A stretch of DNA of 64,000 nucleotides from Acidimicrobiales bacterium (GTDB lineage: Bacteria > Actinomycetota > Acidimicrobiia > Acidimicrobiales > Aldehydirespiratoraceae). The notes under the pieces were generated by a model that saw only the letters and a program-made list of their open reading frames with translations, was not told where the DNA came from and did no database searches. The number at the start of each line of letters is the position of its first letter. The stretch's first letter is position 1. Both the position numbers and the translations under genes were made by a program. Below are positions 34,887 to 59,677 of the stretch, piece by piece. The DNA is taken from positions 62,001-126,000 of the forward strand of contig JAVJSI010000007.1 of assembly GCA_040219515.1 (NCBI GenBank), written 5' to 3'.

Positions 34887-38024
<3,138 letters not shown>

Positions 38025-45679: not shown

Positions 45680-45734
45680 CGGATCAGTGCTCGAGTTCGG
45701 CGCATGCGCCGACGCTAGCGGTCGCCCCACCGAT

Positions 45735-46805
45735 CTAGAGGAGCGACTCGTCGCGATGGGACAGGCCGAGGCGGTCACCGATCCGGCTCATGCTGTAGAC
45801 GCTGAGGAAAAGGAACACCCCGGGCACCAGCGCGATGTGCGGATGCTCGCGCAGGGTCGTGAAGTCCGCCTCGGCGATCATGTTGCCCCAGGTCGGCTCG
45901 GGCGGCTGGAGTCCCAGTCCGAGGTAGGCGAGCGAACCTTCGGCGACGATCAGCACGGCCGCCATCACGAAGGCGTACGCGACCACCGGCACCGCAACCG
46001 ACGGGAGGATCTCCCGGAAGAGAATGCGACGCTGTCTCGCCCCGATCACCCAACTGGCCTGCACGAACTCGCGTTGGGCCACCGACATGGTGTTGGCCCG
46101 CACCAGGCGGGCCATGACGGGCATGCTCGTGATGGCCAACGAGACGCCGGTCTTGAGGATCGCCGACGACGCGGTGGCCGGTGGCCCGAGCACGGTGGCG
46201 AGCGCGATCAACATCACGAGCGCGGGGAAGGCCAGGAAGCTGTCGGTCACGATGCCGACGGCGGCGTCGATTCGCCCTCGCCGATACCCGGCGATGAGGC
46301 CCACGGTGCCACCGATGAGGAGGCTGCCGACCACACCGACGACGGCGGTCAGGAGGCTGACACGGGCGCCGTAGATCGACCGGGCCAGGATGTCGAGGCC
46401 GAAGTTGTTGGTACCGAAGGGGTGCGCCGACAGCAGATCGGGGTGAGCCTTGCCCGGCTCGTTGAGCGTCGCCACCGTGTCGACATGTTCGCTCAACGGA
46501 AGCAATCCGGCGAACGTCGCGGCAAGGCCCAGCGCCACGATCCATCCGATCGACAGCACCAGTCCGGTGTCGAAGGTCGGCCCACGCCACGCGACGCCGG
46601 CAATACCGACCGCCCGACCGATGAGTAACAGTCCGAACAGCACGAGCGGACCCTTGAGGGTCATGGCGAGCGCACCGAACGGGTCGAGCGTGAGGAAGAT
46701 CAACGCGACACCGGCGAACGCGCATGCGACCGCGCGTGGCAGCGCTCGCCGGACCCGTGTGCGGGTCGTGAGGACCTCGGGTCCCGAAGGATCAACGACC
46801 TGCAT
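45735..46805 (-). CDS. ABC transporter permease, DppC/OppC type (second importer)
   Basis: A 356-residue permease, the counterpart of the 18.5 kb one. It has extra N-terminal membrane segments, the L-S-A-H-P-F-G-T-N-N-F-G-L-D-I-L motif also seen in copy 1, and the EAA-like loop G-A-R-Q-R-R-I-L-F-R-E-I-L-P-S. The C-terminus ends R-I-G-D-R-L-G-L-S-H-R-D. Its start overlaps the DppB-type gene by 14 nt. No ATPase gene occurs in this cluster, so the importer may share the ATPases at 21.2-23.3 kb or others in the genome. Confidence 0.92.
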   Translation of the reverse strand: MQVVDPSGPEVLTTRTRVRRALPRAVACAFAGVALIFLTLDPFGALAMTLKGPLVLFGLLLIGRAVGIAGVAWRGPTFDTGLVLSIGWIVALGLAATFAGLLPLSEHVDTVATLNEPGKAHPDLLSAHPFGTNNFGLDILARSIYGARVSLLTAVVGVVGSLLIGGTVGLIAGYRRGRIDAAVGIVTDSFLAFPALVMLIALATVLGPPATASSAILKTGVSLAITSMPVMARLVRANTMSVAQREFVQASWVIGARQRRILFREILPSVAVPVVAYAFVMAAVLIVAEGSLAYLGLGLQPPEPTWGNMIAEADFTTLREHPHIALVPGVFLFLSVYSMSRIGDRLGLSHRDESLL

Positions 46806-47757
46806 GACTCACCCTGGGGTCCAGATAGCCGTAGGCGATGTCGACGACGAACCCGACGACCACATAGACCACTGCGATCGCCAACACGCCGCTCTGCACG
46901 ACCGTGAAGTCGCTCTGACGCGCGCCGTCGACCACCACCCGACCGACACCGGGCAACGAGAAGACCTGTTCGATGACGATCGTGCCGCCCATCAGCCGCC
47001 CGATGCTCACGCCGACGAGCGTGATCAACGAGAACGACGACGGTCGGAGCGCGTGCCGCAGGACGATCAGCCGTTGCGGGAGCCCCTTGCCGCGCGCCGC
47101 CTGGATGTAGTCCTCCTGGAGGGTGGTGATCATGTCACTGCGCAGCACTCTGGTGAACGTGGCCATCTCCGGCAGCGCCAGGGTCAGCGCGGGCAGGAAG
47201 GCGTGGTGGAGATTCGATGCCCAACCCCCGTCGCTGGGCCGGACCCACTGGCCGAGCGGGAACACCGGGAAATAGATCGCGAAGACGAGGACCAGCACGA
47301 TGCTGGCGAGAAAGGGTGGCACGGCAATCACGGCGAACGTGCCCGACGTGGCGATCCGGTCGATGCGGCTGTCGGGCTTCTGCGCCGTCCACATGGCGAG
47401 CGGAACGGACACCGCGAGGGCCATGACCAAGGCCAAGACGGCCAGTTCGATGTTGACCGGGAAGGCACGCACCAGGCGGGTGCTCACATCCTCGACCGGC
47501 GGCACGAGGTTGCGACCGAGGTCGCCCTGGAGTGCACCGCCGACCCAGTCGAGGTAGCGCTCGACCATCGGTTCGTCGAGGCCCATCGACTCGCGGACCC
47601 GCAGATACTCGTCGCGGGTGCTGTTCGGGCCGAGCACCTGTTCGGCCGGGTCGCCCGGCACGAGGTCGACCATGAGAAACGTGCCGATGCTCACGATGAC
47701 GAGTACCGGGATCAGCCGAAGAAGTCTCGAGGCGACGAGCCGGACCATCGGGCTCAC
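46792..47757 (-). CDS. ABC transporter permease, DppB/OppB type (second importer)
   Basis: A 321-residue permease with the D-L-V-P-G-D-P-A-E-Q motif after the first membrane segment, M-G-L-D-E-P, the EAA loop E-D-Y-I-Q-A-A-R-G-K-G-L-P and a G-Y-L-D-P-R-V-S C-terminus. It is the normal family length and lacks the 50-residue insert of the 19.5 kb copy. The GTG at 47757 overlaps the SDR stop (GTGA); the ATG at 47748, three codons on, is an alternative. It lies with its DppC partner downstream of SDR and SnoaL-like genes, so transport and metabolism are co-expressed. Confidence 0.92.
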   Translation of the reverse strand: MSPMVRLVASRLLRLIPVLVIVSIGTFLMVDLVPGDPAEQVLGPNSTRDEYLRVRESMGLDEPMVERYLDWVGGALQGDLGRNLVPPVEDVSTRLVRAFPVNIELAVLALVMALAVSVPLAMWTAQKPDSRIDRIATSGTFAVIAVPPFLASIVLVLVFAIYFPVFPLGQWVRPSDGGWASNLHHAFLPALTLALPEMATFTRVLRSDMITTLQEDYIQAARGKGLPQRLIVLRHALRPSSFSLITLVGVSIGRLMGGTIVIEQVFSLPGVGRVVVDGARQSDFTVVQSGVLAIAVVYVVVGFVVDIAYGYLDPRVSHAGR

Positions 47758-48518
47758 AGCATGTTGAACCGGTGGAAGCCGCCATCGGTGGCGAGGAACG
47801 CACCCGAGAGGTAGGAGGCGTCGGCCGAACAGAGGAAAGCGATCGCGGCGGCGAACTCGTCGTAGGACCCGACTCGACCGAGGTGCACCCACTCGTCGAG
47901 CAACTCCTGACGGTCGGCGGTGCGGCTCGGGTGCGGCGCGTTGCCGACCGTGATGCCGTTGACCGCCACACCGTGAGGCCCGAGTTCCTTCGCGAGCGAG
48001 GCAACCAACCCGACGAGTCCGGCCTTGCCGGCGGCATAGCCGGCTCCGGCCCGTTGGCCGTTCTCGCCGGAGATCGAGTTGACGCAGACGATGCGGCCGT
48101 AGCCACCGTCGATCATCGACGGGATGACCGCACGGGCGCAGAGGAAAGCCGACGTGAGGTTGAGGGCGAGGAAGCTGTTCCACTCCCCGGTGGTGGTGTC
48201 GGCGACCGGGACCCAGCGCGACCCTGGCATCGCGCCGCCCGCGTTGTTCACCAGGATGTCGATCTTCCCGTGGTCGGCGACGACCCGTGCGACGAGCGCA
48301 TTGATGGCGCTCTCGTCGGTCACGTCGGCGACCCCCGCGACCGCGGTGCCCGGTTCGTCGGTCAACGCGGCGACGGTGTCGGCCACCGCGGCGGCGTCGA
48401 CGTCGTTGACGACGACGGTCGCACCCTCACGGGCGAGCCGGGTGGCCGTCGCGCGACCGATACCGCGCCCGGCGCCGGTGACCAGCGCGACGTTGCCCTC
48501 GAAGCGTGTCATCCCCAT
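47754..48518 (-). CDS. SDR family oxidoreductase
   Basis: A 254-residue classical SDR: T-G-A-G-R-G-I-G at about 14-21, N-N-A-G near 91, a catalytic V-N-S-I-S-G and G-Y-A-A-G-K. The C-terminus ends G-A-F-L-A-T-D-G-G-F-H-R. In the lid region (N-A-P-H-P-S-R-T-A-D-R) the sequence differs from the other four SDRs of the window. It follows the SnoaL-like gene by 8 bp and its stop overlaps the permease start, so the enzyme is tied to the second importer. The substrate is unknown. Confidence 0.88.
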   Translation of the reverse strand: MGMTRFEGNVALVTGAGRGIGRATATRLAREGATVVVNDVDAAAVADTVAALTDEPGTAVAGVADVTDESAINALVARVVADHGKIDILVNNAGGAMPGSRWVPVADTTTGEWNSFLALNLTSAFLCARAVIPSMIDGGYGRIVCVNSISGENGQRAGAGYAAGKAGLVGLVASLAKELGPHGVAVNGITVGNAPHPSRTADRQELLDEWVHLGRVGSYDEFAAAIAFLCSADASYLSGAFLATDGGFHRFNML

Positions 48519-48526
48519 CGGCCGAG

Positions 48527-49087
48527 CTATCGCTGGAACATCGGGTTGCGGGCGTTCTCGCTGATCACCGTCATGCTGCAGAACCGCCAGACGTCGGGAT
48601 CCCGGCGGAAGCCGAAGATGTAGCCGCCCTCGTGCACCCCGCGCCGGAAGTCGTCGCCGTCCCCGCTGGTGGCGACGATGCTGTAGCAGGTCGCCGCGGT
48701 CGCGGTCTGGTTGTCATCGCCGACGCGCACGACGGGCGGATGGATCAGGTGCCGGATCTCGAGCGAGTTCACCTCGTCGGCCGGCGGTGGGCCACCGGGC
48801 TTGCCATCGGCGCGCGGCAACACCGGCGCCTCGTAGACCGCCCGCATGTTCTCCTTGCCCGAGATGCGCTCGACGAGGGTGCCGGCGAGCACCCGCTCGA
48901 AGTCGTCGGTGTAGATCGCGAGCAGTTCGTCCCATCGGCGAGCGTCGCACAGCCAGCCGTATTCCATGACCCGGTCGGTGATCGCACGATGGTCCTCGGC
49001 CAACTGCAGGCGCTCCTCGAGCGACGTTCGCGGCGCCTCGGCCTCGTTGACCACGTCCAAGAGCATCGCCAACTCGTCATCGGTCAT
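48527..49087 (-). CDS. SnoaL-like / NTF2-fold protein
   Basis: A 186-residue SnoaL_4-type protein. An N-terminal helical extension of about 25 residues precedes the fold, which has I-T-D-R-V-M-E-Y-G-W-L-C-D-A-R-R-W-D-E-L-L-A-I-Y-T-D-D-F, I-R-H-L-I-H-P-P-V-V-R-V and W-R-F-C-S-M-T. The D-A-R-R-W-D and I-R-H elements are typical of ring-hydroxylating-dioxygenase-beta-like small enzymes. GAGGGGAGAA lies before the ATG at 49087. It is the first gene of the leftward arm (SnoaL, SDR, two permeases), divergent from the lipoprotein arm, which also contains SDR and SnoaL-like genes. Confidence 0.78.
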   Translation of the reverse strand: MTDDELAMLLDVVNEAEAPRTSLEERLQLAEDHRAITDRVMEYGWLCDARRWDELLAIYTDDFERVLAGTLVERISGKENMRAVYEAPVLPRADGKPGGPPPADEVNSLEIRHLIHPPVVRVGDDNQTATAATCYSIVATSGDGDDFRRGVHEGGYIFGFRRDPDVWRFCSMTVISENARNPMFQR

Positions 49088-49111
49088 GTCGTTCTCCCCT
49101 CATCCGTCCCC

Positions 49112-49160
49112 CGGATATGCGTTCTTGATTTTATCTTTTACTTATTACACAATAGTACAG
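49112..49160. promoter_or_regulatory. AT-rich divergent promoter region of the second importer
   Basis: This is the most AT-rich stretch of the window. On the minus strand TAAAAT (49128-49133) is a good -10 for the SnoaL-SDR-permease arm. On the plus strand TTGATT (49125-49130) and CACAAT (49148-49153), 17 nt apart, could serve the lipoprotein arm. A small palindrome TATT-ACAC-AATA (49143-49154) sits between and may be an operator. Confidence 0.45.
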
Positions 49161-49200
49161 CTCGCCGAACAGCGGCTGCAAAATCTCAGGGGGACACACC

Positions 49201-50916
49201 ATGAAAGTCACACGACACCTACGGCTGCGCGTGTTGGGAATGGTCGCCGTTCTGGCGATGTTCGGCGCATCGTGCGGGGACGACAGTGCCACGCCGACCG
49301 ATGACCCGACCGATTCCGCCGACACCGACACGGGTTCCGACTCCGACTCCGACTCCGGCGACAGCGACACCGGCGACAGCGATGGCGAGAGTGCCGATTC
49401 GATCACCATCGGCGTGTTCGCCGAATCGCAGGGGCTCGACCCGATCATCCAGAGCAGCACCGGTCTCGCCGGTGGCATGGAGAACGCGGCAATCTACGAC
49501 GTCCTCATGCGCTGGATTCCCGAAACGGGCGAGTACGAGCCCCACGTGGCCGAGTCGCTCACCGCCAATGACGACTTCACCGAGTGGACCCTGGCGCTGC
49601 GACCCGAGGTCGAGTTCAGCGACGGCACACCGCTCACGGCCGATGCCGTGATCGCCAGCATCAATCGTCACATCGAGAACAACTCTCGTACGGCGGGCCT
49701 GGTCACCCCGATCGCCTCGATGGAGGCCACCGACGACCACACCGTGGTGTTCGGGTTCGAGTCGCCGTTCGCGTCGCTGCCCTTCTCACTCGCGTCGGCA
49801 CCGGGGATGATCGTGAACCCCGCAGCCGTCGAGGCAATGGGCGAGGACTTCCCGACCAATCCGCAGGGTGCCGGTGTCGGCCCCTACGTGATCGACAGCT
49901 TCCTGCCCAACGAGGCGGTCACGCTGACGGCCAACCCCGACTACTGGGGCGGTGCACCCGCCATCGGCGAACTCCGCTTCGTGTTCGTGGCCGGGGCCTC
50001 GGCCACCTACGAGACCTTCAAGAGCGGACAGTTCCAGGCAGCGTTCCTGCGCGACGACGCCGCGATCAACCAGGCCCGAGACGACGGCTTCGACGGATTC
50101 GAGGCGGTCTACTCCGCGGGCGGCGTGATCCTCATGAACAACGGTGTACGTGTGACGTGCACCGGTGAAGCCGAGGACGCCGCCATCTGTGAGGGCGAGG
50201 AAGCCGGCGCGACCCCCCGCGTCGAGTCGATCGCCAACGACCTGCGTATCCGTCAGGCCGTGGCCGCCGCGATCAACCTCGACACACTCAACGAGCGGGC
50301 GTTCGAGGGCGCCGGTCGCATGTCGACCTCGCTCATCCACGAGGAGAGCAGCTGGTTCAACGGCATCGAAGGGCCGCAGTACGACCTCGATCTCGCCACA
50401 CAGCTGGTCGACGAGGTCAAGGCCGAAGGTTGGGACGGCACGATCCGCATCGCCTGCCACGACGGTCTCCCCGCCTGGGGTACCGCGGTGGGCGCGATGC
50501 TCGAAGCGGCCGGGTTCGCTCCGGTCATCGAGGACCAGCGTGACATCCAGGCCAACATCAGCGCGATCATCGTGCAGAAGGACTTCGATCTCGCCTGCTG
50601 GGGCCTGACCATTGCCGACGAAGCACCACTGTTCGCGATGAACCGCGACTTCAACCCGGCCCTCAACGGACTGGGCGGCAACTTCGGTGGCTACGAGAAC
50701 GACGAGGTCGGCGCACTCCTCGCCGGTGCGTCGTCGGCCGGCCCCGACGAGATCCAGGCGATCGTCGATGGCATCGCCACGGCGTACACCGAGGACGTCC
50801 CGTTGTTGTCCCTCCAAGCAACCTCGGACTTCATCCTCATGAACCCGGATCTCGACGGGGCCGAGCTGACGGTCGGGTCGGTGGTGCTCTTCGACGACGC
50901 CACCTTCGCCGGGTGA
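49201..50916 (+). CDS. Substrate-binding lipoprotein, ABC importer family 5 (second importer)
   Basis: A 571-residue solute-binding lipoprotein. The signal peptide ends at the lipobox F-G-A-S-C (Cys at about residue 25). A linker of about 40 residues rich in Asp, Ser, Gly and Thr follows, then the SBP_bac_5 domain with Q-G-L-D-P-I-I-Q, P-H-V-A-E-S-L-T-A-N-D-D-F-T-E-W-T-L and an F-S-D-G-T-P-L-T-A-D-A-V motif. It is a diverged paralogue of the 23.3 kb protein with a similar acidic linker. CAGGGGGACA precedes the ATG. Its stop overlaps the next SDR start (TGATG). Confidence 0.93.
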   Translation: MKVTRHLRLRVLGMVAVLAMFGASCGDDSATPTDDPTDSADTDTGSDSDSDSGDSDTGDSDGESADSITIGVFAESQGLDPIIQSSTGLAGGMENAAIYDVLMRWIPETGEYEPHVAESLTANDDFTEWTLALRPEVEFSDGTPLTADAVIASINRHIENNSRTAGLVTPIASMEATDDHTVVFGFESPFASLPFSLASAPGMIVNPAAVEAMGEDFPTNPQGAGVGPYVIDSFLPNEAVTLTANPDYWGGAPAIGELRFVFVAGASATYETFKSGQFQAAFLRDDAAINQARDDGFDGFEAVYSAGGVILMNNGVRVTCTGEAEDAAICEGEEAGATPRVESIANDLRIRQAVAAAINLDTLNERAFEGAGRMSTSLIHEESSWFNGIEGPQYDLDLATQLVDEVKAEGWDGTIRIACHDGLPAWGTAVGAMLEAAGFAPVIEDQRDIQANISAIIVQKDFDLACWGLTIADEAPLFAMNRDFNPALNGLGGNFGGYENDEVGALLAGASSAGPDEIQAIVDGIATAYTEDVPLLSLQATSDFILMNPDLDGAELTVGSVVLFDDATFAG

Positions 50917-51662
50917 TGCCGGCTCCCGTCGCCATCGTGACGGGGGCCGGAGACGGCATCGGCCAGGCGACCGCACTTCGCCTGGCCGATGCCGGCTACC
51001 GGCTCACCCTCGTCGACGTCGCGCAGGAGGCGCTGGTCGCCACCGCGGCGGAGATCGCCGACGGCGCCAATCCGACCCCGGTGCACACGGTCGTCACTGA
51101 CGTCACTGACGAAGCGGCCACTCAGGCTGCCGTCGACGAGACGATCGAACAGTTCGGTCGGCTCGACGTGCTGGTCAACGTCGTCGGCGGGAGTCGGCCG
51201 GGCAAGACCGTGCTCGACCTCGACCTGGCCGAATGGAACACCATGCTGGCCCTCAACCTGACGAGCACGTTCCTGATGTGTCGAGCCGCGATCCCCCACA
51301 TCGGGCCGGGTGGCGCCATCATCAACGTCTCCTCGGGTGCCGGCGTGCGCGGGATGAAGGCGAACCCGGGCTATGTCGCGGCCAAGGCCGGGGTGGTCGC
51401 GCTCACCCGCGCCCTCGCCATCGACCACGGCGGCGACGGCATCCGTGTCAACGCGGTCGCCCCGGGTCCGATCCGCACCCCGCTGATGCGCCGCAATCGC
51501 ACGCCCGACGAGATCGACGCCATGGGCGGCCTCTCGCTCACCGGGCGCATCGGTGAACCCAGGGAGATCGCCGACGTGATCGCATGGCTCGCCGGCGACG
51601 AGTCGTCCTATGTCATGGGTCAGACGATCGAGGTCGACGGTGGCACGTCGCCCTCGATCTGA
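50916..51662 (+). CDS. SDR family oxidoreductase
   Basis: A 248-residue SDR of the FabG-like type: T-G-A-G-D-G-I-G at about 9-16, V-N-V-V-G-G in the N-N-A-G position (as in the 6.6 kb SDR), I-I-N-V-S-S-G-A-G and G-Y-V-A-A-K. The C-terminus Q-T-I-E-V-D-G-G-T is standard. The ATG at 50916 overlaps the lipoprotein stop by one base. It is followed after 5 bp by another SDR. A stepwise dehydrogenation of the imported compound is a reasonable guess; the substrate is unknown. Confidence 0.88.
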   Translation: MPAPVAIVTGAGDGIGQATALRLADAGYRLTLVDVAQEALVATAAEIADGANPTPVHTVVTDVTDEAATQAAVDETIEQFGRLDVLVNVVGGSRPGKTVLDLDLAEWNTMLALNLTSTFLMCRAAIPHIGPGGAIINVSSGAGVRGMKANPGYVAAKAGVVALTRALAIDHGGDGIRVNAVAPGPIRTPLMRRNRTPDEIDAMGGLSLTGRIGEPREIADVIAWLAGDESSYVMGQTIEVDGGTSPSI

Positions 51663-51667
51663 TCATC

Positions 51668-52468
51668 ATGGAGGACTTCGACGGTCGGGTCGCCGTCGTC
51701 ACCGGCGCGGCCAGCGGCATCGGACTGGCGTTGTGCCATCGCCTGGTGGGTCTCGGCATGCAAGTCGTGGCCACCGATGTCCAGCGGGACCGACTCGAGG
51801 GCGCGGTCGCCGATCTCGGCGAGTCCGTCCTCCCTCGCGTCGTCGACGTCTCGGATCACGGGGCCATGCTCACGCTCGCCGCCGAGGTGTTCGAGACCTG
51901 CGGCGGTGTTCATCTGCTGTGCAACAACGCAGGGGTGACCGTGCGCACCTCGCTGCTGGAGGCGACGCACGCCGACTGGGAATGGGTGCTCGGCGTCAAC
52001 GTGTGGGGCGTGATCCACGGCATCGAGGCGTTCGTGCCCCGCATGATCGCCGGCGGTGAGCCGGGACACGTCGTCAACACCTGCTCGATGGCCGGTTTCC
52101 TGGCCGCGGCTCGCTACGGAATCTATTGCGCGACGAAACATGCCGTCGCCGCGATCTCGGAGTCGCTTGCGGGCGACCTCGCCGATGTCGGTGCGCCCAT
52201 CGGGGTCACCGCGCCCTGCCCGTCGGCGGTCGCCACCAACTTCGCGCAGGCCGAGACCACCCGGCCCGCCCGCTACGGATCCCCGGCCGCGTCGAGCACC
52301 GGCACGGCCGAGCAGGATCGCATCAACGCGGCGCGAGACTCGGCCCAGAGCGCCGACCAGGTGGTCGATACCATCATGGCCGGGGTGCGGAACAACGAAC
52401 TGTTCGTGTTCCCCGACGACGACGCCCGGGCGCCGGCCCGCGACCGCATGACGAGGATCCTCGGCTGA
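51668..52468 (+). CDS. SDR family oxidoreductase
   Basis: A 266-residue SDR with T-G-A-A-S-G-I-G near 13-20, L-C-N-N-A-G, N-V-W-G-V-I-H-G, a catalytic S in N-T-C-S-M-A-G and Y-C-A-T-K. It belongs to the same subgroup as the 1.3 kb SDR (shared L-L-C-N-N-A-G-V and F-V-P-R-M-I-A-G-G). The ATG at 51668 is taken because the upstream 28 residues read across the end of the previous SDR. Its stop overlaps the SnoaL-like start (TGATG). Confidence 0.87.
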   Translation: MEDFDGRVAVVTGAASGIGLALCHRLVGLGMQVVATDVQRDRLEGAVADLGESVLPRVVDVSDHGAMLTLAAEVFETCGGVHLLCNNAGVTVRTSLLEATHADWEWVLGVNVWGVIHGIEAFVPRMIAGGEPGHVVNTCSMAGFLAAARYGIYCATKHAVAAISESLAGDLADVGAPIGVTAPCPSAVATNFAQAETTRPARYGSPAASSTGTAEQDRINAARDSAQSADQVVDTIMAGVRNNELFVFPDDDARAPARDRMTRILG

Positions 52469-52971
52469 TGAACGCACCCACCGACCAGTACCTCCGCGAC
52501 CGACTCGCCATACTCGACACGGTGACGGCGTACTTCATCGCCATCGATCATCGCGAGTTCGACCGGCTCGATCAGGTCTTCTCGGCCGACGCCGTCGCCG
52601 ACTTCGACGGCAAGGCGGTCGGGCCCGGCCTCGAGGCGATCATCGACTTCGTCGCCGGCCGGGGCAAGATCGACTACCCGGTCGACATCCAGAACCTCCA
52701 GCTCTCCCAGCATCAGATCTCGAATCACGTGGTCCGGATCGACGGCGACACGGGCTGGTCGGAGACCTATGCGGTGGCCTATCTCGTCGACCGGCCCGAC
52801 TCGGGGCCCCGCATGCGGACGCGGGGCCTCCGGTACCAGGACGTCCTGACCCGTACCGCCGACGGCTGGCGGGTCAGCGACCGGACCCACGTGTGCGACT
52901 GGATGCGTCTCGACGCACTCGAATGGGCCGCCACCGGCATCACTCCCCTCCCCGACCAGCTCCGGTCCTGA
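52468..52971 (+). CDS. SnoaL-like / NTF2-fold protein
   Basis: A 167-residue SnoaL_4-type protein: I-L-D-T-V-T-A-Y-F-I-A-I-D-H-R-E-F-D-R-L-D-Q-V-F near the N-terminus, Q-I-S-N-H-V-V-R-I-D-G-D and D-G-W-R-V-S-D-R-T-H-V-C-D-W at the end. The I-D-H-R-E-F-D pattern matches the family's cavity Asp/His region. With the 48.5 kb member it makes a pair of SnoaL-like proteins on either side of the second lipoprotein gene. It starts within the stop codon of the SDR gene. The exact reaction (dehydration, isomerisation or ring closure) cannot be told. Confidence 0.8.
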   Translation: MNAPTDQYLRDRLAILDTVTAYFIAIDHREFDRLDQVFSADAVADFDGKAVGPGLEAIIDFVAGRGKIDYPVDIQNLQLSQHQISNHVVRIDGDTGWSETYAVAYLVDRPDSGPRMRTRGLRYQDVLTRTADGWRVSDRTHVCDWMRLDALEWAATGITPLPDQLRS

Positions 52972-52995
52972 GCGTCCGGTCCCGAAAGGACGAAC

Positions 52996-53478
52996 ATGGC
53001 ACACATCGGCATTCCCGACGGCGACGGCCTCGAACGCGAACGCATCTGGCAGCACAAGCCGGCGGTGGGCGCCGCGCTCACCCAGCTGGCCGTGGCCCTC
53101 TACACCGACAGCCTGCTCTCGGTGCGCGAGCAGGAACTGGCCCGCATGCGGGTCGTGGTCATCAACGGGTGCCACTATTGAATGCAGTCCCGTGTCTCGC
53201 AGTCTGCGGGATCTGACGATCTGTGGTCCGAAGAGGACGAGGACGCGATCAATCACGTCCTGATGTGGCCGGACTGGCCCGGATTCAGCGACCGGGAACG
53301 GATACTGATCGAGTACGCCGAGCGGTTCGTCGAGGACCACAACTCTCTCGACGCGGCGTTCTACGGCCGGCTTCGGTCGATCCTCAGCGATGCCGAGATC
53401 GTGGAGGCAACCGCCCTGATCGGCCGCCATCTGGCGTTCGGGCGCCTGTCGCACGTGCTCGCCCTCGACACGACCTGA
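52996..53478 (+). CDS. Carboxymuconolactone decarboxylase/AhpD-like protein with in-frame UGA (probable selenoprotein, Cys-x-x-Sec)
   Basis: Reading through the TGA at 53179-53181 gives a 160-residue CMD/AhpD-like protein. Residues 44-62 run R-E-Q-E-L-A-R-M-R-V-V-V-I-N-G-C59-H-Y-[UGA62]. In this family the segment is normally I-N-G-C-x-Y-C-x-x-x-R, so the UGA replaces the second, redox-active Cys of the CxxC pair. Downstream, in the same frame, the family continues with W-P-x-W-P-G-F-S-D-R-E-R-I-L-I-E-Y-A-E-R-F, then D-A-E-I-V-E-A-T-A-L-I-G-R-H-L-A-F-G-R. An 8-bp stem-loop sits 12 nt after the UGA. CMD/AhpD-like proteins are a known bacterial selenoprotein family, mostly thiol peroxidase or disulfide-exchange enzymes. 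AAAGGA precedes the ATG. Alternative: a nonsense mutation. No sel genes are in the window. Confidence 0.8.
53182..53217 (+). promoter_or_regulatory. Candidate bacterial SECIS stem-loop
   Basis: GUCUCGCA (53194-53201) pairs with UGCGGGAU (53205-53212): eight pairs, two of them G-U, closing a three-base loop G-U-C. The loop G is the 21st base after the UGA, inside the 16-37 nt window of the published bSECIS model, which also asks for a G among the first loop bases. The GCA-GUC-UGC top resembles the apical hairpin of E. coli fdhF. A lower GUC/GAC stem (53187-53189 with 53215-53217) can extend it. Confidence 0.72.
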
Positions 53479-53522
53479 CCGCCGTCGCCGGAACCACACC
53501 AATGATCTAGTAATTTGACGTC

Positions 53523-54293
53523 ATGGCCCGACCCCAATCGCAACGACGATCGCCACGCCTGGCCGAGGACGTCGCCAACCAGCTCCGGGGTCGGATCCTG
53601 GCCGGCGAGTTCGCGGAAACCGAGTCGCTCCCCACGCAGGACCGACTGGTCGAGGAATACCGCGTCAGTCTGCCGTCGGTTCGGGAAGCCCTTCGCATCC
53701 TCGAGACCGAGGGCCTCCTCACCGTGCTGCGGGGAAAGGTCGGCGGCTCGGTCGTCCACGTTCCGCAGACGAAGAAGGTCGGGTACATGCTGGGCCTGGT
53801 TCTCGAATCCCGGGGGGTCGAGGTCGACGAGGTGCTGTCGGCCATCGCCCAGGTCGAGCCGCTCTGCGCCGCGGCCTGCGCCCGCCGCGAGGACCGGCTC
53901 ACCACCGTGGTCCCCGAACTCGAGGAGATCCAGGCGGCGTCCACTGTCGCCATCGACGATCCCGCCGCCTTCGCCCGCGCCGCCCGCCGATTCCACGAGG
54001 TGCTGGTCGAGGGATGCGGCAACCAGCCCCTGGTCGTCATCGTCGGCGCCCTCGAGGCGCTCTGGTCGGGACAGGTGGAGACCGCGGGCGACAAGATCGA
54101 CTTCGGTGCCTTCCCCGAGGTCACGACCCGTGAGGCATCGCTCGAAGAGCACCGTCAGATGATCGACCACATCGCGGCCGGCGATCCCGAGAAGGCCGCG
54201 GCCGCAGCGCAGGCCCACAACCACGACCCGGGTCGACACCAGCTCTCGGGGCAGTCCGTGCTCGTCTCGGCCGAACCGCTGCGCGAGTCCTGA
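53523..54293 (+). CDS. FadR/GntR family regulator with FCD domain
   Basis: A 256-residue FadR-subfamily GntR regulator. The winged helix spans residues 12-80, with L-A-E-D-V-A-N-Q-L-R-G-R-I-L, L-P-T-Q-D-R-L-V-E-E-Y-R-V-S-L-P-S-V-R-E-A-L-R-I-L and the wing G-K-V-G-G-S-V-V. The FCD ligand domain (about 95-235) has the metal-binding pattern F-H-E-V-L-V ... E-H-R-Q-M-I-D-H-I-A-A-G-D. It is 44 bp from the CMD gene and has its own TAGTAAT box just upstream. Its gene is flanked by the importer/SDR operon and the acyl-CoA ligase operon, so either could be its target; FCD ligands are often acids or acyl-CoAs. Confidence 0.9.
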   Translation: MARPQSQRRSPRLAEDVANQLRGRILAGEFAETESLPTQDRLVEEYRVSLPSVREALRILETEGLLTVLRGKVGGSVVHVPQTKKVGYMLGLVLESRGVEVDEVLSAIAQVEPLCAAACARREDRLTTVVPELEEIQAASTVAIDDPAAFARAARRFHEVLVEGCGNQPLVVIVGALEALWSGQVETAGDKIDFGAFPEVTTREASLEEHRQMIDHIAAGDPEKAAAAAQAHNHDPGRHQLSGQSVLVSAEPLRES

Positions 54294-54306
54294 CCCTCTG
54301 GCGCGG

Positions 54307-55863
54307 TCAGGCGTCGAAGTCCCGGCGCAACCGGTGTTTCTGGATCTTTCCCGATGCGGTGGCGGGCAACTCGTCGAGCACCTCGAGCAGCTCGGGCAGC
54401 TTGTAGGTGGCGAGCCCCTTCTCTCGGAGACGTTCGACCGCGGTTGCCAGCGTGAGTTGGGCACCGTCGACCAGGGTTACGAACGCAGCCATGCGTTCGC
54501 CGAGCCGCGGGTCGGCGAGACCGACCACCGCACAGCGTTCGACTTCTGCGAAGTCGAGCAGCATCTCCTCGATCTCACGAGGGGCGATGTTCAGCCCACC
54601 GCGGATGATGATCTCCTTCTTGCGGCCCACGATCGAGAGGGATCCGTCGTCGTCCAGCACACCGAGGTCGCCGCTGCGCACCCAGTTGTCGTCGAGGAAG
54701 GTCGCCGCGGTGCGCTCGGGATCATCGTAGTAGCCGAGCGCGTTCTGCGGGCTCTGGACCTCGATCTCGCCGGGTGCGCCCGGTTCGAGGAGTTCGCCGT
54801 CGTCGCCGCGGATGCGGATGGCGACTCCGGGCAGGGCGACGCCATCGGTGTGCAGCCGGGCCGCCTCGGGCCGGTCGGGGCGATTGCACGACACGACCAG
54901 CGCCTCGGTCGACCCGTAGAGACGCTGTACACCGATGCCACGTCGCCGGGCGGCCGTGACCAACTCGGGTGGCACCGCCGCACCACCGCAGGCGAAGGAG
55001 GTGAGCTCCGGGAGTTGCTCGTTGCGGTCGCCGAGCACCCGCACGAGGTCCTGGAGGAACGTGGTGGCGGCCAGCGTGTAGGAGGCGCCGAAGCGACGCA
55101 CCAGGCTGATGGCGATCGCAGGGTCCCACTCGTCCTGCAGGATCAGCGGGAAACCGTGGAAGAGGGCGAACCGCAGCCCGAAGTTGAACCCGGTCGAGTG
55201 GCCCACGGGCGAGGGCATCCAGACGACCGCATCGTCGTCGAGCCCGAGGAACTCCCGGAACGACCGCACACCGGCGTTCGTGGTCTGCTCGGAGTGCAGC
55301 ACGCCCTTCGGCGTCGATTCGGTGCCCGAGCTGAAGATGAGCTCGGACCATGCCGAAGCCCCCGGCTCGGGCGCCGTGATCGCCGAGGCGTCCTGCGGGT
55401 CGGCTCGCAGCTGGTCGAGGAATTCGTCGCCATCGACCACCACATGGGAGAACCGACCCGCTCCCCCACCCTGGAGCGAGTCGATCATCGGTCGATGGTC
55501 GAAGCGACGATGGACGGCCGGCGTCACGACCGCCCGGGGTGTCGCCGTGCTGAAGATGTGGTCGAGCTCGCGCTCGCGATAGTTCGGCAACAGCGTGTTG
55601 ATCACCAGACCCAAGCGCAGCGCGGCCAGGGCCACGACCGCCGTCTCGTAGCGATTGGGGAGCTGCACCGACAGCACGTCACCGGGAACCAGCCCGTCAC
55701 GCTCGAGGGCGGTGGCGAAAGCGACCGAATCGGCGAGCAGTTGGCCCCGGCTGTGGCGACGCGAACCCTCGCGGTCGACGACCGCCAGGGCCTGCGGGTC
55801 CGCAGCCGCGTGCGCGGTGAAGTGCTGCCACAACGTGTCGTCGTTCCATCCCGGCCGCGTCAT
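54307..55863 (-). CDS. AMP-forming acyl-CoA synthetase
   Basis: A 518-residue AMP-dependent synthetase/ligase. Motifs: F-S-S-G-T-E-S-T-P-K-G (P-loop, near 184-194), Y-G-S-T-E-A-L (near 320), W-V-R-S-G-D-L-G and G-R-K-K-E-I-I-I-R-G-G-L-N-I (hinge), and the C-terminal A-S-G-K-I-Q-K-H with the catalytic Lys. It resembles medium-chain or cyclohexanecarboxylate-CoA ligases. It activates an acid for the beta-oxidation-like genes upstream. The ATG at 55863 has GGAGAGG 5 nt before it and overlaps the enoyl-CoA hydratase stop. Convergent with the FadR gene. Confidence 0.9.
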   Translation of the reverse strand: MTRPGWNDDTLWQHFTAHAAADPQALAVVDREGSRRHSRGQLLADSVAFATALERDGLVPGDVLSVQLPNRYETAVVALAALRLGLVINTLLPNYRERELDHIFSTATPRAVVTPAVHRRFDHRPMIDSLQGGGAGRFSHVVVDGDEFLDQLRADPQDASAITAPEPGASAWSELIFSSGTESTPKGVLHSEQTTNAGVRSFREFLGLDDDAVVWMPSPVGHSTGFNFGLRFALFHGFPLILQDEWDPAIAISLVRRFGASYTLAATTFLQDLVRVLGDRNEQLPELTSFACGGAAVPPELVTAARRRGIGVQRLYGSTEALVVSCNRPDRPEAARLHTDGVALPGVAIRIRGDDGELLEPGAPGEIEVQSPQNALGYYDDPERTAATFLDDNWVRSGDLGVLDDDGSLSIVGRKKEIIIRGGLNIAPREIEEMLLDFAEVERCAVVGLADPRLGERMAAFVTLVDGAQLTLATAVERLREKGLATYKLPELLEVLDELPATASGKIQKHRLRRDFDA

Positions 55864-56660
55864 GCGCCTCTCCATTCCGGCGGTCGTTTCTCGAGGAAGG
55901 CGACCAGTCCTTCGGTGGCATCCGCGCTGGTGGTCGCGTAGTCCTCGACGACGTCCATCTCTGCTTGCAATGCCTCGGGCCGATCCATCTCCTGGGAGAT
56001 GCGGATGAGCTCCCTCATCCGGCGCACGGCCAACGCGCTGTGGCCGGCGACATCATCGGCCATCGCCTCGACGCGGGAGACGAGTTCGTCGGGCGCCACC
56101 GATGCGACCACGAGCCCGATGGCCGCCGCTTCGTCACCGGTGATCGTGCGTCCGGTGAGGAGCAGGTCCTTCGCGTGCTGCAGGCCGACGGCCCGGCAGA
56201 GCCGCTGGCTCCCGCCCGCGCCCGGCAGCTGGCCGAAGTTCAGGTGTCCGTCGGCGATGGCGGCCGACGACGAGGCGACGAGCAGATCACAGGCGAGGGC
56301 GAGCTCGAGACCGCCGGCGACGCAGGCGCCGTTGATCATCGCGATGCTCACGAAGTCGGCGGCCTCGAGTTGATCGCAGACCCGACCGAACGTCTCGAGG
56401 AATCGCCGGAACGCAGCTGCGTCGCGATAGAGCTCGACATAGCCCTCGAGATCGCCGCCGGCGGAGAACGCCCGACCGGCGCCGGTGACCACGACCACGC
56501 GCACGGCCGGATCGTCCGACGCGCGCTCGATCCGTTCCTCGAGTGCGGCGATCGTCGCCTTGTCGATCGGGTTGAGCTTGTCGGGCCGTTGCAGGGTGAG
56601 CGTGCGGACGACGGCCCCCCGGTCGGTGGTGCGGTCGGCGACCGCGACGAGTTCGGTCAC
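55860..56660 (-). CDS. Enoyl-CoA hydratase/isomerase (crotonase family)
   Basis: A 266-residue crotonase-fold protein. L-T-L-Q-R-P-D-K-L-N-P-I opens the fold, F-S-A-G-G-D-L and I-N-G-A-C-V-A-G-G-L-E-L form the oxyanion hole, and the expected Glu sites appear as F-G-Q-L-P-G-A-G-G-S-Q and L-T-G-R-T-I. In classic hydratases the two catalytic residues are Glu; here the first position reads A-G-G-L-E-L-A (no obvious Glu base), so the reaction may be isomerisation, ring cleavage or hydrolysis. GTG start overlaps the stop of the DUF35 gene. Confidence 0.87.
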   Translation of the reverse strand: MTELVAVADRTTDRGAVVRTLTLQRPDKLNPIDKATIAALEERIERASDDPAVRVVVVTGAGRAFSAGGDLEGYVELYRDAAAFRRFLETFGRVCDQLEAADFVSIAMINGACVAGGLELALACDLLVASSSAAIADGHLNFGQLPGAGGSQRLCRAVGLQHAKDLLLTGRTITGDEAAAIGLVVASVAPDELVSRVEAMADDVAGHSALAVRRMRELIRISQEMDRPEALQAEMDVVEDYATTSADATEGLVAFLEKRPPEWRGA

Positions 56661-57046
56661 GATGCCACCCGCCCCGTCTCGGCGACGAACTCCAGTCGAC
56701 GGCCGCCGTCGGCGAGGCGCGGGTAGGTGGCCTGAAGGGGAAGACCGTCGGCGAGATCGGCCGGGTCCACGGCCACCCGGGCGACGATGCGGGCGCCCTC
56801 GGGTACGTCGACGAGCCCGACCACATAGGGCGTCTCGTCGGCGAAGGCCGGGTCGAAGGCGATGTGGCAGACGGTCCACGAGTAGAGCGTGCCGCGGCCA
56901 CACGACTCGACGACGGCACCGTGTTCGTGTCCGCAGTGGGGGCAGCCGGGCATCGGTGGGTAGGCGGCCCGGGCGCACGACGAACACACCCGGACGAGCA
57001 GTCGCTCGTCGTCGATCCCGTCCCGGAAGAACTGCACGTCGCTCAT
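56657..57046 (-). CDS. Zn-ribbon/OB-fold protein (DUF35)
   Basis: A 129-residue rubredoxin-like zinc ribbon plus OB-fold. Cysteines C-S-S-C (near 21-24) and C-P-H-C (near 35-38) bind zinc, and the OB strand series G-T-L-Y-S-W-T-V and Y-V-V-G-L-V-D-V-P-E-G follows. DUF35 proteins form complexes with thiolase-like partners and channel acyl-CoA in retro-aldol or thiolytic side-chain degradation. The partner thiolase is directly upstream, with an ATGA overlap. Together they would release acetyl- or propionyl-CoA. Confidence 0.88.
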   Translation of the reverse strand: MSDVQFFRDGIDDERLLVRVCSSCARAAYPPMPGCPHCGHEHGAVVESCGRGTLYSWTVCHIAFDPAFADETPYVVGLVDVPEGARIVARVAVDPADLADGLPLQATYPRLADGGRRLEFVAETGRVAS

Positions 57047-58203
57047 CGTCGTACCAACACCATCGCCGACCCGTCCTGCAATGCGCCCGAGGTGACCACG
57101 GCGACCTCGGCGTCGGCCACCTGGCGATCGCCGCCCCGACCCTGGAGCTGGATCACCGCCTCGGCCACGGTGTTCATGCCGTGGAGGTACCCCTCGTTGA
57201 GGAGGCCACCGTTGGTGTTCGTCGGCAGCGAGCCACCGGGAGCCGTCGCGCCCGACCGAACGAGGTCGCCGGCGCCGCCGCGTTCGGCGAATCCGAGGCC
57301 CTCGAGCGCGAACAGCACCACGCTGGAGAAGCAATCGTAGAGCTCGGCGACGTCGACGTCGGCGGGGCCCAGACCGGCGATGTCCCAGAGCCGGTCGGCC
57401 AACAGCGATGTGTAGTTGCGGCTCAGGTCGGGCCATGTGGCCATGTCGGCCATGTCGAGCCCGCCGCCGCCACCGAGCGAGTAGGCACCGGCTTCGATGC
57501 CGATACCGGGATGCGGCGCATCGAGCGCGGCCCGCGAAGAGGTGAGCACCAGCGCGCACCCGCCGTCGACCTCGGTGGTGCAGTCGACGGCCCTCAGCGG
57601 GTCGGCCACATAGGGGGATTCGTGGTGCAACTCGAGCGTCATCGGCGTGCGCCGGAACGCCCGTTCGTTGCGCGCCGCCCACTCCCGTTGCGCAATGGTG
57701 ACCGCGGCGAGGTCGTCCTCGGTCGCGCCGGTCTCGATCATGAACCGGCGGGCCCACATGGCGATGGCCTGCGGATACGCGGTGAGCCCGGCGTCGTGGC
57801 GCAGGTCGGCGGCATCGCCCGGCGCCCGGGCGCTCCCCACCCGCTGCCCGCTGCGCCCGTTGAGCGCTCGATACACCACGATGTTCTCGGCCACGCCCAT
57901 GCCGATCATCGACGCGGCGTGGGTGGTGAGGTAGCACGGCGCCTGCCCGGCGAGCCCCGAGTCGAGTGTGTGGGCGAGGGTGCCCATGCCGAGCACCGAG
58001 GCCACCGCCTGGGCCGGCACCGAGTCCCCGAGGTACTGGTAGGTCACCACACCGTCGATGTCGCCCGGCGTGAGCCCGGCATCGGCGATGGCGGCCCGGC
58101 AGGCATCGGCAGCCACGGCGAGCACCGAGCGACCGGAGTTCTTCGACAGTTCGGTGAACCCGACCCCGGTGATGCAGGCGTCGCGGTACGGCAAGCTCGT
58201 CAC
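57043..58203 (-). CDS. Thiolase-like acetyl-CoA acetyltransferase (SCP-x type)
   Basis: A 386-residue thiolase-superfamily protein of the SCP-x/Ltp2-like branch. C-I-T-G-V-G-F-T-E-L at the N-terminus, the Cys-containing Q-A-P-C-Y-L-T-T-H-A-A in the nucleophile region, Y-D-C-F-S-S-V-V-L-F-A-L-E-G-L-G near 290 and N-E-G-Y-L-H-G-M-N with the catalytic His are visible. Branch members pair with DUF35 proteins in steroid or aromatic side-chain cleavage. GTG at 58203 has GGGGATGAGAAC upstream. It is the first gene of the thiolase-DUF35-hydratase-ligase operon; the 73 bp before it hold a TTATGCT-like -10. Confidence 0.87.
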   Translation of the reverse strand: MTSLPYRDACITGVGFTELSKNSGRSVLAVAADACRAAIADAGLTPGDIDGVVTYQYLGDSVPAQAVASVLGMGTLAHTLDSGLAGQAPCYLTTHAASMIGMGVAENIVVYRALNGRSGQRVGSARAPGDAADLRHDAGLTAYPQAIAMWARRFMIETGATEDDLAAVTIAQREWAARNERAFRRTPMTLELHHESPYVADPLRAVDCTTEVDGGCALVLTSSRAALDAPHPGIGIEAGAYSLGGGGGLDMADMATWPDLSRNYTSLLADRLWDIAGLGPADVDVAELYDCFSSVVLFALEGLGFAERGGAGDLVRSGATAPGGSLPTNTNGGLLNEGYLHGMNTVAEAVIQLQGRGGDRQVADAEVAVVTSGALQDGSAMVLVRR

Positions 58204-58276
58204 GTTCTCATCCCCACGGAAGCATAACCTCTAAACATTGGAAGATACAGTAGGTGCCGCGGGGCCCGACACCCGG

Positions 58277-59191
58277 TCACGGCCGAAGGCCCTCGGCGCG
58301 GTCCACGCCGTCCACGCCGAGCTGGCCGACGAGCGCCTCCACCAGGGTGTCGTCGCTCGTGAGCCGCGGGGCTCGCGGCCACCCGCCGGGAGCGCCGAGC
58401 GCCCGCAGCGCGGCCTTGGTGCCCACGATGCCACCGGCGGCCTGCGTGGCCCGGAACATCCGGATGAGCCGGGCGTAACGGCGCGCCATTGCATCGGCAT
58501 CGCCTCGCTGGTGGGCATCGATGAGTGACACGCAGAGCTTCGGGACCAGGTTTCCCTCGGAACTCAGGTAACCCTGCGCACCGAGGGCGAGCGCAGTGAG
58601 GGCGTGCATCGGGCCACCCACGTGGACGTCGACGGCGCCGTCGATCGCATCGATCACCCGGGAGAGATAGCCGACGTCGCCGGTGGTCACGTTGAGACCG
58701 ATCACCTGGTCGTACTCACGTGCCGCGTCGACCAGCAAGCCGACCGGGTAGAGATAGCCGACCGACTGGTGCGTGGAGATGACCACGGGACACTCGACGG
58801 CATCGAGAACCGTGTGCAGGTAGGTGCTCAGCTCCTCGGGCCGGGGCGAATAGCCGTGTCCGAGGTCGAGCGAGTAGAGCTGCATCGCGTCGAGTCCGAC
58901 CTCGGTGGTCATCCGCCCCAGGGCGATCGCCTCGTGGGCCGTGCGCGGTTCCACACCCATGACCCGCACCGGCACATGTCCCGACAGCTCCTCTCCTGCG
59001 ATCTCCATGACCCGGCGCACCTCGTCGACGGTCAGCGTGTAGCCCTCGCCGCTACCGCTGCCGGCGACGTAGACACCGATGCCGCTGTCGCGCAGCCGGC
59101 CCAGGTGGCCACGGAAGCCGACCTCGTCGAGCCGACCGTCCTCGGTGAAGGGCGTCAGGCTGATCACGAACGTGCTGGAGGGGTTGGCCAT
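58277..59191 (-). CDS. Dihydrodipicolinate-synthase-family protein lacking the Schiff-base Lys
   Basis: A 304-residue TIM-barrel protein of the DapA/N-acetylneuraminate lyase family. The phosphate/carboxylate loop reads G-S-G-S-G-E (usual G-T-T-G-E) near 45-49 and the rest of the barrel aligns well. The catalytic Lys, normally in I-G-I-K-x-x-x-G-D, is N167 here (I-G-L-N-V-T-T-G-D), and the usual Y-N-x-P Tyr motif reads S-T-H-Q-S. So it cannot use the normal Schiff-base mechanism. A TAGGCT box 6 nt before the ATG suggests a leaderless message. Its gene ends 73 bp from the thiolase gene. Confidence 0.8.
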   Translation of the reverse strand: MANPSSTFVISLTPFTEDGRLDEVGFRGHLGRLRDSGIGVYVAGSGSGEGYTLTVDEVRRVMEIAGEELSGHVPVRVMGVEPRTAHEAIALGRMTTEVGLDAMQLYSLDLGHGYSPRPEELSTYLHTVLDAVECPVVISTHQSVGYLYPVGLLVDAAREYDQVIGLNVTTGDVGYLSRVIDAIDGAVDVHVGGPMHALTALALGAQGYLSSEGNLVPKLCVSLIDAHQRGDADAMARRYARLIRMFRATQAAGGIVGTKAALRALGAPGGWPRAPRLTSDDTLVEALVGQLGVDGVDRAEGLRP

Positions 59192-59197
59192 GGGCCG

Positions 59198-59203
59198 AGC
59201 CTA
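59198..59203 (-). promoter_or_regulatory. -10 box TAGGCT of a probable leaderless transcript
   Basis: TAGGCT on the minus strand is followed by exactly 6 nt and the ATG of the DapA-family gene at 59191. TTGGAG stands close upstream but too near for a standard -35. Confidence 0.5.
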
Positions 59204-59279
59204 TGTTCTCCAATCCTATGAGGAATGGCCTGAAGGGCCTGGCGGGCCTTCCGCTTCGTTGACAGCCGTCCCGACCGGG

Positions 59280-59582
59280 CTACTGGTCGAGCGACGTCAA
59301 CAGATCACCAATGGTGTGCTGGTCCTCGAGGGGGTGACGAAGCGATTGCTCGTCGTTGACGACATAGCGGTTTCGCCGCCCCACCTTCTCACTTCGCAGG
59401 TAGCCCTCTTCCTCGAGCTCGTGGATGATCCGCTGCACTGCGCCGACCGTGACCCCGACCGCGTAGGCGATGTCACGCTGACGGGCCTCGGGGTTTCGGG
59501 CGATGGCGATGAGCACATGGGCGTAGTTGGTGAGGAACGTCCACGAGGGGATCTTGGTTTCCGGCGCTTCGAACATCGTCAT
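59280..59582 (-). CDS. Small winged-helix transcriptional regulator
   Basis: A 100-residue protein consisting of little more than a winged helix: the helices A-R-Q-R-D-I-A-Y-A-V-G-V-T-V-G-A-V-Q-R-I-I-H-E-L with E-G-Y-L-R-S-E and the wing G-R-R-N-R-Y. It resembles ArsR/MarR-type single-domain regulators. It is divergent from the CoA-transferase gene with 95 bp between the starts, and convergent-side neighbour of the DapA-family gene. In the gap, CAGGT occurs twice as a direct repeat (near 59618 and 59632 on the minus strand), a possible binding site. It probably controls the CoA-transferase/thiolase operon. Confidence 0.8.
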   Translation of the reverse strand: MTMFEAPETKIPSWTFLTNYAHVLIAIARNPEARQRDIAYAVGVTVGAVQRIIHELEEEGYLRSEKVGRRNRYVVNDEQSLRHPLEDQHTIGDLLTSLDQ

Positions 59583-59677
59583 TCAGTCACACCCATCACA
59601 AGGGCCACTCGTTGACACCTGTATCAGATTACCTGCATTTCTATTCATATTTCAACTCCAGCCTATATGGTGGACGA

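Follow-up and report, generated by a model that had tools for sequence, protein, structure and literature searches.

A CMD/AhpD-like gene with an in-frame UGA predicted to encode selenocysteine in an Acidimicrobiales bacterium

The window analysed here is a 64,000-nucleotide stretch of contig JAVJSI010000007.1 (positions 62,001 to 126,000 of the forward strand) from an Acidimicrobiales bacterium whose genome assembly (GCA_040219515.1; 4.02 Mb in 19 contigs) has a completeness of 99.98. Positions 52996 to 53478 of the window, on the forward strand, hold one 160-codon gene of the CMD family. The frame opens with an ATG at 52996, reaches a TGA at 53179 to 53181, stays open for 98 further codons and ends with a TGA at 53476 to 53478. 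A likely ribosome-binding site, AAGGA (52986 to 52990), was read from the sequence 5 nt before the ATG. The internal TGA corresponds to residue 62 of a 160-residue protein, the predicted selenocysteine (Sec); the translation around it is RVVVINGCHY-U-MQSRVSQ, and the UGA occupies the second Cys position of a CxxC motif (C59-H-Y-U62). With C placed at the UGA, the joined protein matched PF02627 (CMD) with an E value of 2.4e-9 and a score of 37.5 bits, above the cut-off of 23, and a search from the genome gave 31.3 bits for this gene. The 98-aa piece after the UGA, taken alone, had no Pfam match. A CMD-like selenoprotein is recognised by a PF02627 match above the gathering score together with a CxxU motif, and both were present in the window gene. 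A first-pass annotation of this DNA had described two segments in one frame across a single TGA, followed by 98 open, CMD-like codons; direct reading and the domain match of the joined protein confirmed this description.

The gene forms part of a likely operon on the forward strand, in which the genes run in one direction and overlap or are closely spaced. The first member encodes an ABC transporter substrate-binding protein of the SBP_bac_5 family (49201 to 50916), described as a lipoprotein from a reading of its N-terminus. It is followed by an SDR oxidoreductase (50913 to 51662, overlapping the preceding gene by 4 nt), a second SDR oxidoreductase (51668 to 52468), a SnoaL-like protein immediately upstream of the selenoprotein gene (52468 to 52971; SnoaL_4 E value of 2.5e-26) and, downstream of it, a FadR/GntR-type regulator with GntR and FCD domains (53523 to 54293). 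Domain matches agreed with the neighbors named in the first-pass annotation. Divergent from the operon, on the reverse strand, are a second SnoaL_4 protein (48527 to 49087) and an SDR oxidoreductase (47754 to 48518), and two Opp/Nik-type ABC permeases lie on the same strand (45735 to 47757). Permeases, an acyl-CoA ligase, a thiolase-like protein, a CoA-transferase and a thioesterase-like protein surround the operon. The whole region from 44876 to 62430 can be described as a dense catabolic island, with two ABC permeases, SDRs, two SnoaL proteins, a thioesterase-like protein, an acyl-CoA ligase, thiolase-like proteins, a DapA-like protein, a CoA-transferase and an enoyl-CoA hydratase-like open reading frame; the hydratase and the second thiolase (from 60937) were called from a reading of the translations only. 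A horizontal origin was considered on the basis of base composition and was rejected, as the GC contents of the operon (67.9%), the gene (65.6%) and the window (68.2%) gave no signal.

The genome carries the four Sec genes that the first-pass proposal called for, selA, selB, selC and selD. The tRNA-Sec gene (selC) scored 64 bits, above the cut-off, and ARAGORN concurred; selA (393 bits) and selB (276 bits), both above their cut-offs, are adjacent on contig 18, the selB match spanning profile positions 2 to 342 of 581, and selD scored 362 bits. Other genes of this genome also contain an in-frame UGA. The selD gene itself (contig 16, 95480 to 96403; L049) has one near its N-terminus, within S-H-G-A-G-U-G-C-K-L, and a formate dehydrogenase-like gene (contig 10, 149240 to 150400; L270), which scored under the TIGR01553 cut-off, has one within T-U-H-A-P. 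A second UGA-containing CMD gene, with the motif D-C-G-I-U-R-N-L-R, lies on contig 12 (75354 to 75812; L055 and L233). This gene was present in six of the seven genomes of the genus, with UGA in all six, and no Cys form of it was found in 51 genomes of the family at an E value of ≤1e-8. Its hairpin is different and is without a G at +21, which was counted against recoding.

Homologues of the window protein were sought in the family, and 26 of the 51 genomes contained a match. Among the family genes read at the codon, UGA was found in 11 and Cys in 16, and the source genome has one of each; the Cys homologues were single uninterrupted proteins. In the 11 family genomes with a UGA gene, a tRNA-Sec was detected in nine and a selB above the cut-off in nine, each genome having at least one of the two, and the genomes missing either are drafts of 84 to 87% completeness. 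A profile search was then extended to 397 genomes of the order, of which 253 had a match, and for the CMD matches in the resulting loci the codon aligned with the second-Cys column of the profile was read. The first set comprised 151 redundant rows (89 TGA, 61 TGC/TGT and 1 GAG), a gene being represented in many cases by more than one locus. Collapsed over a 150-nt window, the rows were reduced to 65 UGA and 40 Cys genes, and over the 45 nt following the codon to 59 and 40, respectively. A second set had 47 TGA and 9 TGC rows. The second UGA CMD gene of the source genome scored below the order-wide threshold and is absent from both sets. Every TGA in the matched stretches was either at the second-Cys codon or at the protein end. 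The 136 UGA rows reach their next in-frame stop after 94 to 128 codons, except for one locus that ends before a stop. Relatives with Cys at this codon, which the first-pass annotation had predicted, were found beside others with UGA in the family and in both order-wide sets. No stop codon elsewhere in the gene was seen in the UGA relatives, their rows being free of a further stop within 94 codons after the UGA.

A verified UGA gene was present in at least 57 of the 397 genomes. A tRNA-Sec was detected in 53 of these 57 genomes versus 183 of the 340 others (Fisher p of 1.5e-9, uncorrected for relatedness). In the other four (G216, G240, G350 and G166, the last with a completeness of 95%), no tRNA-Sec was detected under strict search filters, and these genomes were counted against recoding. 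Named contigs matching the branch (80 loci) were mostly titled as Acidimicrobiia, Acidimicrobiales or Actinomycetota, with some Pseudomonadota among the Cys forms. UGA genes of the branch are also carried by contigs titled as a Bifidobacterium breve metagenome-assembled genome (L067) and a Betaproteobacteria metagenome-assembled genome (L100); on the tree, L067 clusters with genes of freshwater actinobacteria, which makes a mislabelled record probable. A match was found in 32 plasmid records, of which four Cys relatives were read, and a scan of viral_contigs detected no relative of the window protein.

The region following the UGA was examined for a selenocysteine insertion element (SECIS). 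A bSECIS-like hairpin occupies positions 53194 to 53212 of the window and consists of an 8-bp stem with the loop G-U-C (53202 to 53204), the loop G being 21 nt past the UGA. Relative to the UGA, positions +13 to +20 pair with +24 to +31 around a loop of +21 to +23, and two of the eight pairs are G-U. This is the structure that the first-pass annotation had read. The accessible text of PMC1088965 words its criterion as a hairpin just after the UGA with a G in a small apical loop, and the window gene has this arrangement. The two strands of the window together contain 1,380 TGA triplets. Two of these combine a G at +21 with seven or more consecutive pairs enclosing a 3-nt loop; the TGA at 53179 alone reaches eight in this fixed geometry, and the other one lies at 16691 on the reverse strand. 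The folding energy of the window hairpin was unexceptional (z of −1.28, with 23 of 200 shuffles folding equally well), and this was counted against recoding.

Comparison of the UGA and Cys genes detected a clear difference in this geometry. A G at +21 was present in all 59 distinct UGA sequences versus 10 of 40 Cys genes, and standard pairs filled 90.9% of the cells of the fixed hairpin in UGA genes versus 40.9% in Cys genes. When the pairing partner was slid by 1 to 3 positions, the paired fraction in the UGA set fell to 21 to 55%. The observed paired fraction of the UGA set was reached by none of 500 shuffles and its number of pair types by three of 500, the shuffles ignoring relatedness. 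Two-sided stem changes numbered 44 in the UGA set (reached by 0 of 500 shuffles). Because the Cys set, which is more diverse, shows 30 of them in these columns too, the paired fraction is the telling measure and the two-sided changes weigh less. Seven or eight of the eight pairs formed in 55 of the 59 distinct UGA genes, six in three genes and three in one (L135). The stem of the window gene is unlike the common one in sequence and still forms 8 of 8 pairs. Similar results were obtained with the second set, in which 12 of the 47 UGA rows repeat sequences of the first: a G at +21 was present in 47 of 47 UGA rows versus 4 of 9 Cys rows, and 341 of 376 versus 29 of 72 possible pairs were formed. 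Folding energy over +1 to +45 did not differ between UGA and Cys genes (p of 0.11), a further result counted against recoding. The first-pass claim of a match to the bacterial SECIS model was thereby supported, in that the geometry with G at +21 is conserved in UGA relatives and not in Cys relatives.

On this computational evidence, we consider it highly probable that the UGA at 53179 to 53181 is decoded as selenocysteine. Were this codon a true stop, a second piece would start at the ATG at 53182, which follows the TGA immediately and opens a 98-aa reading frame, and two small separate proteins would result. This arrangement is very improbable, since the Pfam match belongs to the joined protein and none was found for the 98-aa piece, the CxxC motif would be cut in two, the Cys homologues read are uninterrupted, and the hairpin characterises the UGA genes. 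An ATG at this place is also far from general, the codon after the UGA encoding Met in 11 of the 65 distinct UGA genes, Leu in 41, Ile in 9 and Gln in 4.

A pseudogene, or a TGA arising from a sequencing or assembly error, would fit the presence of the exact gene in one genome only and its long tree branch (1.47). UGA at the same codon in dozens of other genomes, retention past the UGA of residues invariant in a 17-sequence alignment and the unbroken hairpin geometry argue against such decay or error, to which we give a still smaller probability than to the true stop. Reading of TGA as Trp, or unspecific near-cognate read-through, would be compatible with the open frame taken by itself and is the least probable of the explanations considered, to the point of being negligible: TGA terminates the window gene and 26 of the 27 family genes read (own included), Trp never occurs at the site in homologues, and the genome has a dedicated Sec system. 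The separate reinitiated reading frame, the pseudogene or error, and TGA as Trp were each rejected on the evidence just given for them.

Decoding as Sec is predicted to proceed through the hairpin just after the codon, which would recruit SelB with Sec-tRNA-Sec for insertion of selenocysteine at UGA 53179 to 53181. The product would be a 160-residue thiol oxidoreductase of CMD/AhpD fold with Cys59-His-Tyr-Sec62 as its redox pair. Such an enzyme may cycle between a selenenyl-sulfide and a thiol/selenol form, reducing a substrate, and could be re-reduced by a cellular dithiol.

The active site was compared with those of known proteins of this fold. Invariant columns in the 17-sequence alignment include Glu47, Asn57, Cys59, Cys/Sec62 and Arg66. 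When rows of less than 80 bits were excluded, the Glu, the first Cys and the Arg were invariant in 65 of 65 UGA genes and 39 of 39 Cys genes, and the four plasmid Cys relatives that were read have Arg at the same position too. An AlphaFold model of the window protein, built with 17 sequences, had a pLDDT of 79.6, and its best PDB matches were P. aeruginosa AhpD-like proteins, with predicted-model TM scores of 0.67 to 0.69 and a best E value of 2.5e-5, at 25 to 26% identity to the window protein. As modelled, the protein appears to share an all-helical fold with M. tuberculosis AhpD and P. aeruginosa PA0269 (PDB entries 2ijc, 2o4d and 7xw1). The available part of PMC3141380 proposes for M. tuberculosis AhpD a relay of Glu118-Cys130-His132-Cys133-His137; judged by that text, the window protein resembles AhpD and PA0269 in its Glu...Cys-x-x-Cys arrangement, with the first Cys likewise 12 residues after the Glu, and according to it and the PDB alignments, the residue equivalent to Arg66 is the relay His in both. 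The window protein differs from them in having Sec for the second Cys and Arg for the relay His. The AhpD relay of Glu-Cys-Cys-His is thus kept in its Glu and first Cys and altered in its other two residues. By analogy with M. tuberculosis AhpD, Sec would be the equivalent of Cys133 and Glu47 that of Glu118, while Arg66 would replace His137.

The debrominase Bmp8 (PDB entries 6ohi and 6ohj) belongs to the same fold family, with a query-normalised TM score of 0.66, near those of the best matches, and an E value of 5e-3, and it was found by profile as well. Unlike the window protein, to which it has 15 to 16% identity, Bmp8 acts on brominated pyrroles according to the entry title, and nothing in the analysis of the window suggested halogenated substrates. 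From the fold matches of the model to AhpD-like structures and Bmp8, the window protein should work like an AhpD-type oxidoreductase, though one defining AhpD feature is absent.

Curated NCBIfam models did not assign the protein to an established family. NF053654 (GroundWater_YciW (seleno)protein) and TIGR01926 were the best-scoring models for the window protein and eight other UGA members. The window protein scored 41.7 bits against a cut-off of 310 for NF053654 and 37.1 against 81.8 for TIGR01926, and the eight others scored at most 70.5 and 42.0, respectively, so that none is a member; the Cys paralogue in the source genome likewise fell under both cut-offs. Selenoprotein-level NCBIfam cut-offs were missed by all nine UGA proteins tested. 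TIGR00778, a short AhpD-core domain model, was above its cut-off in two of the eight other UGA members (L012 and L097). The gamma-carboxymuconolactone decarboxylase model was absent from the NCBIfam matches of the window protein.

The relationship between Sec and Cys forms was examined on a quick tree of 102 rows, with SH-aLRT support only, in which the Sec/Cys column was left in and U was treated as a gap. At least six changes between the forms were required, compared to a mean of 31 in 500 shuffles, none of which was as low, and the starred branches of the tree force two of these changes. The window gene is on a long branch (1.47) of uncertain place, its nearest relative being a UGA gene at 44% identity, and this low identity was counted against the recoding reading.

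The genomic neighborhoods of the relatives were then compared with the operon. With the SnoaL neighbor as query, matches were found in 22 of the 397 genomes of the order at an E value of ≤1e-15, with identities of ≤44% outside the source genome, and no CMD gene (E ≤ 1e-3) was detected near the SnoaL matches in the 25 loci from other genomes (the match plus ~1.5 kb per side). In searches with the window proteins (tblastn) within 4 kb, in which rows are redundant and flank lengths unequal, none of the 77 UGA rows had a SnoaL match, as against 6 of the 43 Cys rows; SDR1 was matched in 13 UGA and 17 Cys rows, thiolase in 7 Cys rows and CoA-transferase in 15 UGA rows, 13 of which come from a single lineage (f27). 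Elsewhere, UGA copies had varied neighborhoods. Four plasmid regions containing Cys relatives were also inspected, of which three carried annotation. On two Sphingobium plasmids the relatives lie beside SDRs, among which one bears the name 3-alpha-hydroxysteroid dehydrogenase; one of these records also has a named NTF2-type (SnoaL-like) protein with the Cys relative. On the Streptomyces plasmid, kstD, a 3-oxosteroid dehydrogenase, lies two genes past the relative. As annotated, these contexts tentatively suggest steroid- or terpenoid-like substrates.

Two accounts of the role of the protein were weighed. If recoding is real, the protein could still be a general AhpD-like antioxidant or adaptor whose presence among these genes is incidental or helps against stress arising from the pathway chemistry. 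To this account, which the CMD/AhpD fold, the CxxC-type chemistry and the varied neighborhoods of other UGA copies favor, we give a nearly even chance. It sits less well with the co-directional, closely spaced SDR and SnoaL genes, with Cys relatives in SnoaL-SDR-CMD or kstD-type clusters (three annotated regions) and with an Arg in place of the relay His in all 104 genes counted. Alternatively, from the ABC-SDR-SDR-SnoaL-CMD-FadR unit we tentatively infer that the protein may act in the breakdown of a steroid- or terpenoid-like compound taken up by the cell, a possibility that we place somewhat further below even. The exact SBP-SDR-SDR-SnoaL-CMD-FadR order was found in no other genome examined, and for this reason the pathway assignment is weak. 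A redox step in the catabolism of an imported compound, as the first-pass annotation had suggested, is therefore plausible in the light of some Cys relatives in SnoaL/SDR or steroid-type clusters and unproven for an operon seen in this one genome among those examined.

A bolder version of the catabolic role would make the branch a distinct class of selenoenzyme, with an E...CxxUxxxR site in an AhpD fold and Sec used for substrate-level reduction in steroid- or xenobiotic-type catabolism rather than for peroxide defence. Iodothyronine deiodinase is a Sec enzyme that removes halogen reductively. By analogy with it and with Bmp8, a Cys enzyme of the same fold, members of such a class might carry out reductive halogen removal or the reduction of an activated ring. 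We regard this version as unlikely.

CxxU CMD selenoproteins are, as a kind, already known since 2005, on the strength of the Sargasso Sea, Global Ocean Sampling (GOS) and review listings; selenoproteins of Actinobacteria are likewise known for the phylum. According to the text available for each source, the 2005 study of the Sargasso Sea described CMD-like selenoproteins with CxxU from four sequences (PMC1088965), AhpD-like 2 selenoproteins were represented by 70 sequences, as metagenome counts, in the GOS study (PMC2398784), and the CMD-like selenoprotein is included in two reviews (PMC9312934 and PMC13188914), the second of which gives MBW1767730.1 as a representative. These four sources bear out the first-pass statement that AhpD/CMD-like proteins are known selenoprotein families. 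Compared by description only, the published CMD-like selenoprotein (PMC1088965, PMC9312934 and PMC13188914) resembles the window protein in its CMD domain, its CxxU motif with Sec at the second Cys and its predicted downstream SECIS, and AhpD-like 2 (PMC2398784) in being defined by pfam02627 and CxxU. As described in those parts of the sources, the CMD-like selenoprotein is given no lineage, operon or Arg-for-His feature. Twelve selenoprotein families were counted in Actinobacteria in the available text of PMC1794560, and SelA/SelB were reported in most sponge-symbiont bins, of various phyla, in that of PMC5649159. The order-wide branch, the active site with Arg for His and the operon are absent from the descriptions in the text seen of PMC1088965, PMC2398784, PMC9312934, PMC13188914 and PMC1794560, and no study of the branch was found in the accessible portions of literature on Acidimicrobiia selenoproteins (PMC13083753, PMC5649159 and PMC7435645), drawn mostly from outside subscription journals.

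The branch is conserved, little described and widespread in the order. Gene callers often split or shorten selenoprotein genes, as noted in the available part of PMC1088965. Because the branch occurs in at least 57 of 397 genomes and nine UGA members miss the cut-offs of the NCBIfam selenoprotein models, it may be widely misannotated. As a natural collection in which Sec and Cys versions share one fold and the SECIS is conserved, the branch lends itself to the questions of what advantage Sec confers on AhpD-type enzymes and of why Arg has taken the place of the relay His. Should the connection to steroids or xenobiotics prove true, Sec chemistry would be added to catabolism in little-known actinobacteria.

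Other genes of the window were noted during the analysis. A LacZ-type beta-galactosidase of 1,042 residues with GH2 domains is encoded at 34896 to 38024 on the forward strand. At the far end of the window, the reverse strand holds the C-terminal part of a DabA-type inorganic carbon transporter subunit (PF10070; 62802 to 63998), which runs off the window end and is followed by a small open reading frame (62461 to 62952) to which no family was given.
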